64,000 bases of DNA from NCBI RefSeq assembly GCF_011734195.1, contig NZ_JAANTH010000001.1, forward strand, positions 1,178,001-1,242,000. Direction: 5' to 3'. Of the stretch, positions 8,885 to 39,517 are shown piece after piece. Both the position numbers and the translations under genes were made by a program. The notes under the pieces are model-generated. The model was not told the DNA's origin. It saw only the letters and a program-made list of their open reading frames with translations, and did not search any database. Position 1 is the stretch's first letter, and each line of letters starts with the position of its first letter. The stretch is from Halobacterium sp. R2-5. Lineage in GTDB: Archaea; Halobacteriota; Halobacteria; Halobacteriales; Halobacteriaceae.

Positions 8885-9706
8885 ATGCCTGGCGACAGCG
8901 AGGACCCCAACGACGAGGTCCAGTACCACGTCGAACTCTCCGAAGGCGACGTCGCGTCCAGCGTCCTGCTCCCGGGGAATCCCGAGCGCCTCGACAAGAT
9001 CACGCCGCTGTGGGACGACCACGACGAGGTCGCCCACCACCGCGAGTACCGCACCGCCACCGGCAGCTACGACGGCACGCCCATCTCGGTCACCTCCACG
9101 GGCATCGGCTCGCCGTCCGCCGCCATCGCGGTCGAGGAGCTCGCGCGCATCGGCGTGGACACGTTCATCCGCGTGGGCTCCTGTGGCGCCCTCCAGGCGG
9201 AGATGGAGCCCGGCGACCTCGTCATCACGCGGGGCGCGGTCCGACAGGAGGGCACCAGCGACGAGTACGTCCGCGAGGACTACCCCGCGGTCGCCGACCA
9301 CGAGGTCGTCGCCGCGCTCGTCGCCGCCGCCGAGCGCCTCGGCCACGACTACCACGTCGGCCTCACGATGAGCTCGGACTCCTTCTACGCGGGGCAGGGC
9401 CGCCCCGGCTTCGAGGGGTTCGAGGCCGCCGGCAGCGACGACCTCATCGCGGAGCTGAAGGACGCGAACGTCGCGAACGTCGAGATGGAGGCGTCGGCGA
9501 TCCTCACGCTCGCGAACGTCTACGGGCTGCGCGCCGGCGCGGTCTGCTCGGTGTTCGCGAACCGCGAGACCGGCGAGTTCCTCACCGAGGGCGAGACCAA
9601 CGCCGCGGAGACCGCGAGCCTCGCGGTCCACCTGCTCGCGAAGATGGACGAGCAGAAGGCGGAAGCCGGCGTGGACAAGTGGCACGCCGGGCTGAGCCTG
9701 GAGTAG
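8885..9706 (+). CDS. udp: Uridine/nucleoside phosphorylase (PNP-UDP family)
   Basis: 273 residues of the NP-I fold. Visible motifs are the phosphate loop (LLPGNPERLDKI), the GSCGAL strand-turn, and the active-site segment NVEMEASAIL with the ribose-binding Glu-Met-Glu. These features favour a uridine phosphorylase-type enzyme. It would cleave uridine, including uridine made by the neighbouring deaminase, to uracil and ribose-1-phosphate. In haloarchaea ribose-1-phosphate can enter a pentose-bisphosphate pathway. The start at 8885 gives the canonical length; an in-frame GTG at 8858 is less likely. Confidence 0.9.
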   Translation: MPGDSEDPNDEVQYHVELSEGDVASSVLLPGNPERLDKITPLWDDHDEVAHHREYRTATGSYDGTPISVTSTGIGSPSAAIAVEELARIGVDTFIRVGSCGALQAEMEPGDLVITRGAVRQEGTSDEYVREDYPAVADHEVVAALVAAAERLGHDYHVGLTMSSDSFYAGQGRPGFEGFEAAGSDDLIAELKDANVANVEMEASAILTLANVYGLRAGAVCSVFANRETGEFLTEGETNAAETASLAVHLLAKMDEQKAEAGVDKWHAGLSLE

Positions 9707-36178: not shown

Positions 36179-36634
36179 ATGCCCGAATCGTCGCGCCTGA
36201 TGGACTCGTACACGGAGATGACCGAGCTGCTGTTGCCCAACGACACGAACAACCTGGGGCGCGCGCTCGGGGGCGCGGTCCTCCACTGGATGGACATCTG
36301 TGCGGCCATCGCGTCGATGCGGTTCTCCGGCCGGCAGTGTGTCACCGCGTCGATGGACCACGTCGACTTCATCGCGCCCATCGAGATGGGCGAGGTCGCG
36401 GTCGTGGAGGCGTTCGTCTTCGACGTCGGGAAGTCCAGCATCGAGGTGAAAGTCGAAGTCCGCGCGGAGGACCCCGTGGAGGGAACCGAGCGCAAGACCA
36501 CGACCTCGTTTTTCACGTTCGTCGCGCTCGACGACGACGGCAACCCCACGGAAGTGCCGCGACTGGACTGCGAGACGGAGGCCGAGGAGGCGCTCCGGCA
36601 GGAGGCCCTCGAGGCGCACGCCGAACAGCAGTAG
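36179..36634 (+). CDS. Acyl-CoA thioesterase, hotdog fold
   Basis: 151 residues. The start YTEMTELLLPNDTNNLGRALGGAVLHWMDICAA is typical of the YciA/BACH-type acyl-CoA thioesterases, with the catalytic Asn/Asp region at NDTNNLGRALGG and the hotdog helix following (VLHWMDICAAIAS). VTASMDHVDFIAPIEMGEV is the usual central strand. The enzyme hydrolyses acyl-CoA thioesters; which acyl chain is unknown, and haloarchaea make little fatty acid. It diverges from the TraB gene and ends two bases before the remains of the UbiA gene. Confidence 0.9.
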   Translation: MPESSRLMDSYTEMTELLLPNDTNNLGRALGGAVLHWMDICAAIASMRFSGRQCVTASMDHVDFIAPIEMGEVAVVEAFVFDVGKSSIEVKVEVRAEDPVEGTERKTTTSFFTFVALDDDGNPTEVPRLDCETEAEEALRQEALEAHAEQQ

Positions 36635-36635
36635 C

Positions 36636-37229
36636 CTAGTCGAGGCGCGGCACGTCGACGGTGACGACGGCGCCGGTCGGCTCGTTGTCCGCGAACGCCA
36701 GCGGCAGGAAGGTCGGGGACACCGCCCACGCGAGCGCGACGACGGCGGTGTTGACGACGAGGACGTCCTTGAGACGGTGCATCTGGTCGCCGGGCTGGGG
36801 GAGCTAGTCGGTCGCGTACAGCACCCAGAAGCCGCCCGGCAACAGCGCGAGCGGCCCGCCGAGCATCGAGACCGCGAGCGCCGTGCCGTACGCCGCCGCG
36901 GCCGCGACGTACAGCGCGTCGCGGTGCCGTCGCACGAACGCGGCCTGCGCGAGCTTGTCGACGGCGTCGTCGTCCACGTCGGCGATGCGGTCGTTCGCGT
37001 AGACGGCGAACGTGACGAGGCCGACGACGAGCGGTGCCGGGCTCAACGGCAGCGACAGCACCGCCATCGCGATGCCGACCTCGACCACGGTGATTACGGA
37101 GAGGTACGCAGAGCTGTACACCAGCGTGTTCCAGAGCCGTTTCGCGCCCGCGAGAACGCGGGCGAGCTGTGCGAGCAACCACGTCGGTCCGCCGGGGAGG
37201 GTCCGCCGGCGATTTCGTTCCTGTGACAT
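36636..37229 (-). pseudogene. UbiA-family prenyltransferase, disrupted by an in-frame TAG and C-terminally truncated
   Basis: From ATG 37229 the frame reads 141 residues with family features: NTLVYSSAYLSVITVVE and the Asp-rich YANDRIADVDDDAVD, then FWVLYATD followed by TAG (36804-36806). The same frame continues LPQPGDQMHRLKDVLVVN and then TAVVALAWAVSPTFLPLAFA, which is family sequence, to a stop at 36636. A Trp codon (TGG) would fit at the TAG position. After PLAFADN the family continues for roughly another 90 residues that are absent, including the second Asp-rich motif. The natural enzyme would prenylate an aromatic or isoprenoid substrate; the remnant should be inactive. Confidence 0.8.
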
Positions 37230-37293
37230 CGTTGGGTTGTCGCCCGGCGACGCCGCCGGGCTGACGCGGGATGCCACGCCCGAAACCGCCTTA

Positions 37294-37301
37294 TTATTAT
37301 A
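37294..37301 (-). promoter_or_regulatory. TATA-like element of the broken UbiA gene
   Basis: TATAATAA on the minus strand in an unusually AT-rich 50-base patch (37289-37337). It is 65-72 bases before the ATG at 37229 and could still give a transcript across the pseudogene. Confidence 0.4.
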
Positions 37302-37451
37302 CCCGTTTCATAACTTATAAAACTAGAAAATAATCGGTCCGGGCCCGTACGCGACGACGCGGGCCGTCCCGGATACGGTGCTGAGACGGTCGCGCGCGTA
37401 CTGAACGACCCCCCACGTTTATTCGCTCGCTCGCCGTTGTCTACGAGAACG

Positions 37452-37757
37452 ATGACAGAGCACGCGAAATCCCTCCTGCGAGAAATCGACGAGACCGCCG
37501 CGGACGTCTTCGACCTCGCGGACCGGAGGCGAGCGAAGGAGCGGGCCGGCTCCCGCCGCGACGCGTACGAGAAGGGGTTCAACGAGGTCCAGAGCCTCGC
37601 CGGGAAGCCGCAGGCCCGCGAGCTCGCGGAGTGGATCCAGTCCGAGATGCGCGAGCGCGAGGCGTTCCCGTCGGCCCGCAACGTCCGCCAGCAGGGCGCG
37701 AAAATCTGCCGGGAGAGCGGCCACGAGGTCTCGACGAACGACTGGCTCGGCGCGTAG
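37452..37757 (+). CDS. Small charged helical protein, unknown function
   Basis: 101 residues, all-helical by appearance, starting MTEHAKSLLREIDETAADVF and rich in charged residues; no Cys-pair, signal or membrane segment. The ATG at 37452 is supported by a TATA-like GTTTATTC at 37417-37424. It may bind nucleic acid or another protein, given the basic patch DRRRAKERAGSRRDAYEKGF, but no family is recognised. Confidence 0.65.
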   Translation: MTEHAKSLLREIDETAADVFDLADRRRAKERAGSRRDAYEKGFNEVQSLAGKPQARELAEWIQSEMREREAFPSARNVRQQGAKICRESGHEVSTNDWLGA

Positions 37758-37803: not shown

Positions 37804-38253
37804 GTGACACTCGACGCGCCCGCACCCGACCCGCCCGAGCTGGAGGGCGACCCCGACGAGTACGACGACGTCACCGTCCAGGGAACGGACTACCACCGCG
37901 ACGACCTCCAGGAGTTCCTGGAAGCCGGCGCGTGGGAGGAGGCCTTCGAGTCGTGGGCCGCGGAGACGGACCTCGACCGCGAGGCGTTCGACGTCGCCGT
38001 CGACCTCGGACTGTTCGACGAGTTCGACTTCTTCTGGGACGACTTCGCGGACCGCGTCGGCTACCACGCGCCCGGCCTCCCGGAGAACTGGCGCGAGCGC
38101 GACATCCACCCCGACCTGGAGTCGTGGGAGACGGTCTCCGCTATCAACGCGTCGCTGGCGGAGCTCGGCGCGGAAGTTTCGAACCTCCTCAAGGCGGAGT
38201 ACGTCGACTGGGAGGCCGAGTACGACGCGCCCGACGACCTCCCGGACTTCTAG
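37804..38253 (+). CDS. Very acidic soluble protein, unknown function
   Basis: 149 residues from a GTG start, with a TATA-like GTTTTTCC 24-31 bases upstream. It is strongly acidic and rich in aromatic residues (DEFDFFWDDFADRVGYHAPGL). No membrane segment, Cys or catalytic motif is evident; it looks helical and globular. The stop shares CTAG (38250-38253) with the esterase gene on the opposite strand. No family recognised. Confidence 0.7.
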   Translation: MTLDAPAPDPPELEGDPDEYDDVTVQGTDYHRDDLQEFLEAGAWEEAFESWAAETDLDREAFDVAVDLGLFDEFDFFWDDFADRVGYHAPGLPENWRERDIHPDLESWETVSAINASLAELGAEVSNLLKAEYVDWEAEYDAPDDLPDF

Positions 38254-39347
38254 TTCGAGAGCGTGCGGTCGAGGAACTGCTCGATGACTTTCGGGCCGGC
38301 GGGCGGCCCGTTCGAGACGCGCTCTTTCAGTTTCCCGTCCCCAGGAGTGCACTTCGCCTTCGTAATCGTCTGATCGACGGTCGGCTTCTGGGTGAGCCCG
38401 TCGAACCCGAACCCGTGGCCAAGGTCGTGGAGTTCGTAGTACGTCGTATCGACGCAAGCCTCGCTCAGTGCATCGTAGAGGATTGTGCTCTGCTGGTACG
38501 GGACGGTGACGTCCTGCCGTCCGTGCATGAGGAGGAACGGCGGGTCGTCGGGGTCGACGTACGTTATCGGGTCGGCTCGTTCGACCAGTTCCTCGTTCTC
38601 CGTAATCTGGCCGCCGACGAGCAGTGACTCCGGCGAGTTCGGCGCGTCGTGGCTGAATCCTTTCCCGTCCAGTTGCGGGTCCATCTTGAGAAAGTCGGTC
38701 GGCGTGTACCAGCCGACGACAGCCTGCACACGGCCGGACTCCCCCGGGTAGACGGTCTTCTCAATGTCGTAGACGTCGCCCTCGATTTCCTCCACGTCGC
38801 CGGCCGTCCCGGCGAGGACGGCGAGGTGCGACCCGGAGGAACTCCCCCAGGTCGCGACCCGTTCCGGGTCGAGATTGTACTCGTCGGCGTGTCCGCGCAA
38901 CCACCGAATCGCCGCCTTCACGTCGACGATGTGGTCCGGGAACGTACCTCTCGGAACGGGGTTGTCTGGCGACGGGCTGATTATCGGGTCGACGTCTTCC
39001 GGAATTTCGGAGAGCCGGTGGTCTACCGTCGCCATCGCGTAGCCGCGGCTGACGAAGTACTCCTCAAGGTCCGGCGTGTCCTTCCGCGTGTTCACGAGCC
39101 AGCCGCCGCCGTGGACGAAGACCACGAGCGGTGTCGGCTCTTCGCTGTCTGGAAGGTACAGGTCGAGTTTGAGTTCGCCGCTATCGCGCTCGGCGTACGT
39201 CAGTCCCTCGTGGAACGTGACGTCGCTACTCGGCGTCGGTGTGTCCGACTGCGCGAACGCGCTTCCCGGGAGTGTCAGTGCTGCTGCGGCGGCGCCGGCG
39301 GTGCTGAGGAACTGCCGGCGAGTCGTCAGTGTATACTTCCTGGCCAT
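38250..39347 (-). CDS. Tat-exported alpha/beta-hydrolase (esterase)
   Basis: 365 residues. The N-terminus has a twin-arginine signal (TTRRQFLSTAGAAAAALTL) ending near AFAQS, with no lipobox, so the protein is probably released or held by other means outside the cell. The hydrolase fold shows the oxyanion loop VVFVHGGGWLV, the nucleophile elbow TWGSSSGSH, an acid in MHGRQDVTVP and a His near DLGHGFGF. The family covers esterases, lipases and feruloyl-esterase-like enzymes. The ATG at 39347 places the arginine pair near residue 10; an upstream in-frame codon at 39374 is less likely. Confidence 0.87.
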   Translation of the reverse strand: MARKYTLTTRRQFLSTAGAAAAALTLPGSAFAQSDTPTPSSDVTFHEGLTYAERDSGELKLDLYLPDSEEPTPLVVFVHGGGWLVNTRKDTPDLEEYFVSRGYAMATVDHRLSEIPEDVDPIISPSPDNPVPRGTFPDHIVDVKAAIRWLRGHADEYNLDPERVATWGSSSGSHLAVLAGTAGDVEEIEGDVYDIEKTVYPGESGRVQAVVGWYTPTDFLKMDPQLDGKGFSHDAPNSPESLLVGGQITENEELVERADPITYVDPDDPPFLLMHGRQDVTVPYQQSTILYDALSEACVDTTYYELHDLGHGFGFDGLTQKPTVDQTITKAKCTPGDGKLKERVSNGPPAGPKVIEQFLDRTLSN

Positions 39348-39517
39348 TGTCGACGCCTGCCACTCGTCACCCACCGATAATTGTTAAACGGCGAGTAACG
39401 CCGCCAAGATGCCAGTATCTGTCCGTCCGCTGGATTCGGGCAGCGCCCGCAACGAAGAAGAGATACGGTACGCCGCGCGGGTACTGAGCGCAAACCGTGG
39501 GCGACAGCGCGAACTGC

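Follow-up and report, generated by a model that had tools for sequence, protein, structure and literature searches.

LyeJ is a UbiA-family lycopene elongase of bacterioruberin synthesis, and its gene is expected in a neighbourhood with CruF. A haloarchaeal carotenoid locus that includes a UbiA gene is mentioned in PMC3403918. The broken gene dealt with here shares the UbiA superfamily with LyeJ but represents another subfamily, which is paired with a histidine kinase. It lies in the window, by which is meant the whole stretch of 64,000 nucleotides analysed, a part of contig C1 of the 2.98 Mb genome (five contigs) of Halobacterium sp. R2-5. Elsewhere in this genome a separate, uninterrupted UbiA gene (C2:431283) adjoins a CruF-type (PF04240) gene (C2:432193), and this pair rules out loss of LyeJ or of bacterioruberin as the meaning of the broken gene.

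Solved archaeal UbiA members include Archaeoglobus fulgidus UbiA (4tq3/4tq4), the Aeropyrum pernix protein (4od4/4od5) and digeranylgeranylglyceryl phosphate synthase (6m31/7bpu). All of these were matched by the structure model of an intact relative of the broken gene (L092, pLDDT 87.9), which has the all-helical UbiA fold and whose best matches were solved archaeal UbiA members; identity to them is 14–17%, and the window copy differs from them in being truncated. The PF01040 model scores over its cut-off in three of three intact relatives (49.5–62.1 bits vs 34.2), so named family membership and predicted fold agree that the intact protein is probably a membrane prenyltransferase. A sequence-profile search of the PDB gave no match for UbiA at E<=0.01, and no NCBIfam model exceeded its cut-off for the two UbiA relatives scanned.

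HisKA_7TM is a known domain of archaeal kinases (PMC5847659, PMC6944256), and what archaeal kinases sense is presented as an open question in the latter paper. The lost neighbour of the broken gene, as kept in the congener G012, carries HisKA_7TM (PF16927, 203.9 bits), PAS (36.8) and HATPase_c (51), all over cut-off, and by these domains the intact protein is probably a sensor kinase. A structure search with its model (pTM 0.44) returned, among the 50 matches listed, mostly kinase, PAS and phytochrome titles, none useful for the 7TM part. The letters "prenyl" do not occur in the main text of PMC5847659 and PMC6944256, so that neither paper ties HisKA_7TM kinases to a prenyltransferase under that word.

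Two Bacillus systems are comparable in outline. The ComQ-ComX-ComP locus (PMC4008528) likewise has the gene of a prenyl-transferring enzyme beside that of a multi-TM histidine kinase, but ComQ belongs to PF00348 and not to UbiA. DesK (PMC8301901) resembles the present case in that a histidine kinase with several TM segments is linked to the lipids of the membrane. Against this background, the locus in the window is best read as a two-gene unit, a UbiA-type prenyltransferase and a 7TM-PAS sensor histidine kinase, that has very probably been inactivated in this haloarchaeon, and recently.

The interrupted frame and the deletion junction

The frame concerned runs on the minus strand from 37229 to 36636, is interrupted by a TAG at 36806-36804 and ends at a second TAG (36638-36636); a single base separates this end from the stop codon (36632-36634) of a convergent thioesterase gene. 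Its first 141 codons (36807..37229, minus strand) encode the N-terminal part of a UbiA-family prenyltransferase and hold the first Asp-rich motif, NDRIADVDDD. Upstream lies an AT-rich, promoter-like patch (37230..37332, minus strand) that is partly conserved in congeners, the blastn match with G002 reaching about 37332. When its two stops are translated as X, the intact proteins of three congeners align with it over about 190 residues, with identities of 74% (G010), 76% (G012) and 72% (G002), which marks it as a gene remnant and not a chance frame. An earlier note, made from the sequence alone, had read the TAG with an open frame beyond it as a broken UbiA gene, and both the sequence and this 72–76% identity bear it out. 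The 141-residue fragment on its own has no Pfam match at E<=1.

The same note took the TAG (36804..36806, minus strand) to stand in place of a tryptophan codon. The three intact congeners indeed have W at this column, as do six of the eight full-length rows of alignment A1 (the other two have V and F), and within the context YAxDW the W is at least 90% conserved in the 24 rows of alignment A2. Relatives with an intact shorter protein ending at the same TAG, which the note named as evidence against its reading, were not seen: among those listed, the open frames with a UbiA match are at least 287 residues long, the window's own and one piece truncated by the end of its contig being left aside. 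Of 98 genomes searched with the UbiA frame, the window's own included, 41 gave a match at E<=0.001, many of these matches being distant UbiA relatives. No further copy of the broken gene was found in its own genome at E<=1.

Beyond the TAG, UbiA coding sequence continues (36698..36803, minus strand) as far as an 11-nt junction, CGTTCGCGGAC (36687..36697, minus strand), which is found in both the UbiA and the kinase genes of relatives. In G010 the two genes carry it without change, whereas in G012 and G002 the UbiA copy differs at one position. The remainder (36636..36686, minus strand) consists of the last 16 codons and the stop of a 7TM-PAS histidine kinase gene, in frame with UbiA. The stretch 36639-36734, which crosses the junction, is 59% identical over 32 residues to kinase residues 527–558, and the codons TTC GCG GAC (FAD) have the same frame in both genes. 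The note's description of the frame after the TAG as family sequence therefore holds up to the junction and fails for the final 16 residues, NEPTGAVVTVDVPRLD, which are the C-terminus of the histidine kinase.

In G012, G010 and G002 the gene order is thioesterase, then histidine kinase and UbiA on the other strand, with open frames of 307–328 residues for UbiA and about 560 residues for the kinase; the window is collinear with them except for the missing stretch. The two copies of the junction sequence are spaced by 2088 bp in G012, 2087 bp in G010 and 2083 bp in G002. Collinearity and this spacing together indicate a deletion of about 2.1 kb with in-frame fusion: judged by the congeners, the last 126 UbiA codons are gone, and with them all but the 16 kinase codons past the shared junction sequence. 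A second event, deletion or gene fusion, had been suspected, and it proves to be a deletion by which UbiA was joined to the end of the adjacent kinase gene. The estimate of about 90 absent residues was too low; positions and lengths give 126 against each of the three congeners. We infer that the short repeat was the cause, slippage or recombination between its copies presumably having removed the intervening sequence and left an in-frame junction.

The deleted part includes the second Asp-rich motif (NVRDxEGD-like). Full-length relatives in alignment A1 hold both Asp-rich regions characteristic of a UbiA prenyltransferase and the window copy only the first. Alignment with close relatives hence gives what decay predicts, a W at the TAG column and a lost C-terminal part, and the gene, like a pseudogene, has a premature stop and lacks an essential part that intact orthologs have. 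The deletion breaks both genes whether or not the TAG is a sequencing error, and probably no functional product would remain. No kinase of the same kind was found in the genome at E<=1e-60 or 1e-80 (14 of 25 and 3 of 29 candidates scored, respectively), nor was another UbiA-kinase pair.

The locus in the genus and the age of the breakage

The convergent neighbour, an intact 4HBT thioesterase gene (36179..36634, plus strand; PF03061, 4.2e-19), serves as synteny anchor, since it occurs in all 13 genomes of the genus and adjoins a TraB-like gene in all 13 stretches. At this locus UbiA and kinase are intact in three genomes (G002, G010 and G012) and the window carries the fused remnant; G009 has an intact kinase and a UbiA gene cut by the contig end. 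Neither gene was seen there in the other eight. One of these, G004, has kept the UbiA upstream region (L064:8455-8876; 79% over 187 nt) together with a short 5' relic. In a three-gene tree G004 pairs with G012, whose genes are intact (100/99), and the window branches off outside a group formed by G010, G002, G012 and G004 (97/99), which makes the losses of both genes in the window and in G004 independent.

This second loss bears on one of the alternatives, namely that the TAG is an error of sequencing or assembly, that the junction was misassembled, or both. Single-base errors and false joins do occur; the junction, however, joins the two genes cleanly at 11 nt, in our judgement seemingly too short for the usual false join, and the loss of the same two genes in G004 shows that members of this group can do without the unit. 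Error is accordingly regarded as very improbable.

Two further genes lie near the locus. A small gene of 101 codons (37452..37757, plus strand), with no Pfam match over cut-off, stands beside it in G012, G002, G004 and G006 and is absent from the other stretches. Between the P149 gene and gatA the window has an esterase-like gene (38250-39374, minus strand) with a twin-arginine-like signal, both features recognised by eye; a tblastn search at E<=1e-3 did not find it in the stretches fetched for the 12 congeners, and so it may be an insertion here.

The codon model (own script) covered the 166 codons before the junction in four genomes, with the thioesterase, P149 and TraB genes as controls; the tree shape was picked by likelihood for each gene and differs between genes. 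Omega on the window's UbiA branch is 0.077 (about 0.03–0.15) vs 0.17 elsewhere (p 0.04 for the difference), and omega = 1 is rejected on that branch (2dlnL 58). In none of the control genes does the window's branch differ in omega from the others. The UbiA branch of the window is long, 0.80 vs 0.21–0.28 for the other three genomes, the window's values in the control genes being 0.21–0.30. Changes seen in the window alone, counted at sites on which the other three genomes are in agreement, are 12 synonymous and 8 nonsynonymous in the 131 codons before the TAG, and 6 synonymous and none nonsynonymous in the 35 codons after it. The relaxed, neutral evolution expected of an old pseudogene thus left no sign in the remnant, and neutral decay is rejected by the model. 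Purifying values on this branch point instead to a breakage that is probably recent, not the outcome of long decay. A low omega may mean either that the remnant has hardly drifted or that its product is still under selection; we prefer the first reading, since the gene has lost half of the enzyme along with the partner kinase.

Continued selection on a product would be the premise of both remaining alternatives, which we regard as very improbable. In one, read-through of the TAG, by suppression or by pyrrolysine-like decoding, would yield a UbiA-kinase chimera of 197 residues with a use in the cell. In its favour, no other stop interrupts the frame before its end, and constraint is seen before and after the TAG, but the best PylS score in the genome is 27 bits against a cut-off of 178, TAG is the stop of 16 of the 42 heuristically predicted genes of the window (TGA of 19, TAA of 7), and such a chimera would have neither the second Asp-rich motif nor the main part of the kinase. 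The preference for decay over read-through voiced in the earlier note is upheld on the same grounds: no PylS over cut-off, TAG as a common stop, and a product missing the second half of the enzyme. A PF04240 gene at C1:1093968, flagged with a "TAG inside", is no instance of recoding, the TAG being its natural end: the 156-residue protein before it matches all 13 genomes of the genus nearly end to end. That the 141-residue N-terminal fragment is a shortened, functional membrane protein under selection is equally improbable, as the low omega of 0.077 that would suit it extends to the part after the TAG, needless for a short protein, while half of the enzyme is gone and no relative (one being cut by a contig end) was seen to end here.

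The UbiA-kinase pair in haloarchaea

Recent inactivation of a single UbiA gene would be ordinary by itself, and it is the conserved pair behind it that is worth following. A scan of named genomes by UbiA alone (alignment A1) yielded 41 loci, to which two stretches fetched earlier for UbiA were added. In all 43 (L091-L131, L041 and L042) a kinase directly adjoins UbiA, with 44–53% identity over most of its length; it lies downstream on the same strand in 40, upstream in two and on the opposite strand in one. Clustering of the ORFs revealed no other family in more than 12 of the 43 loci.

Two further samples were also searched; the samples overlap. In the 98 genomes, all 25 kinase matches at E<=1e-94 have UbiA nearby (that of G009 at a contig end), and the kinase is present at 25 of 26 UbiA loci (E<=2e-37, plus the contig-end piece of G009), the exception being the window. 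At one locus (L164, G073:C2) the two genes are about 1.65 kb apart, unlike the other linked loci. Weaker kinase matches numbered 23, and none of the 19 that were opened has UbiA in its flanks, of which about 2 kb either way was covered as far as the contig reached. In a tree built from 44 kinases the 25 UbiA-linked rows fall within one clade of 27 rows (100/99; midpoint root), which also contains two kinases from the window's family (L174 and L176) with no UbiA in the fetched stretches.

Among 392 genomes of the phylum, for which three kinase candidates were scored per genome, there are 32 UbiA matches at E<=3.1e-54, all in the window's order, and the kinase is close by at 30 of them. It is missing from the window and from G410, where no such kinase occurs within about 5 kb (L188, G410:C1:1324000-1336000). 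In G083 a UbiA that falls short of the E<=3.1e-54 limit has a more divergent kinase beside it. Six UbiA relatives from outside the order were opened, and five are without such a kinase in 12 kb; near the sixth, a kinase match of only 47 bits lies on the other strand.

Proximity to a histidine kinase is not a general property of UbiA genes in the controls: within 1.5 kb, a weak HK-like ORF (45 bits) accompanies one of the six UbiA genes over the Pfam cut-off in the window's own genome, and none accompanies the six distant UbiA genes of relatives (L031, L033-L037). On these comparisons of gene order and sequence, UbiA and the 7TM-PAS histidine kinase are a conserved haloarchaeal gene pair. G410, L174 and L176 and the relatives outside the order speak against strict pairing. 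Searches of open-access literature on prenyltransferases, histidine kinases and archaea brought up no paper that we recognised as describing the pair, and passages of PMC12419801 and PMC3403918 contain no description of it.

The pair is held together in several haloarchaeal families while its outer neighbours differ, and in a set of six related species both genes have gone together on two occasions or more. That the two genes adjoin, occur together and are lost together suggests one functional unit. In the intact unit UbiA would attach an isoprenoid chain to an acceptor, and the kinase would sense the product or what this does to the membrane; the genes would then be useful as a pair and be lost as a pair. 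More specifically, and only as a tentative proposal by analogy, UbiA might make or remodel an isoprenoid membrane molecule that is read by the 7TM part of the kinase, with a logic like that of ComQ-ComP or DesK; the window would then be a case of loss by one deletion and G004 a second loss. The sensor part of DesK is, to our knowledge, unrelated, and the comparison with it is an analogy only. With a conserved enzyme beside it, the archaeal kinase has a specific candidate for where its signal comes from. The pair offers a lead, open to testing, on the signal of an archaeal 7TM kinase, and the two natural double losses, in the window and in G004, provide comparison strains.

The gap between UbiA and the kinase was inspected by eye in 41 sequences, some of them partial, and spans 52–243 nt to the assumed kinase start. 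A ComX-like peptide was looked for there and none was recognised. TATA-like stretches precede the kinase start, nothing else being conserved, and the kinase may thus have a promoter of its own. In the Halorubrum saccharovorum contig of this set (L126) the gap, at about 8906-9114, contains the sequence AGATGTGTATAAGAGACAG near an N, which seems to be a sequencing-library adapter within the assembly.
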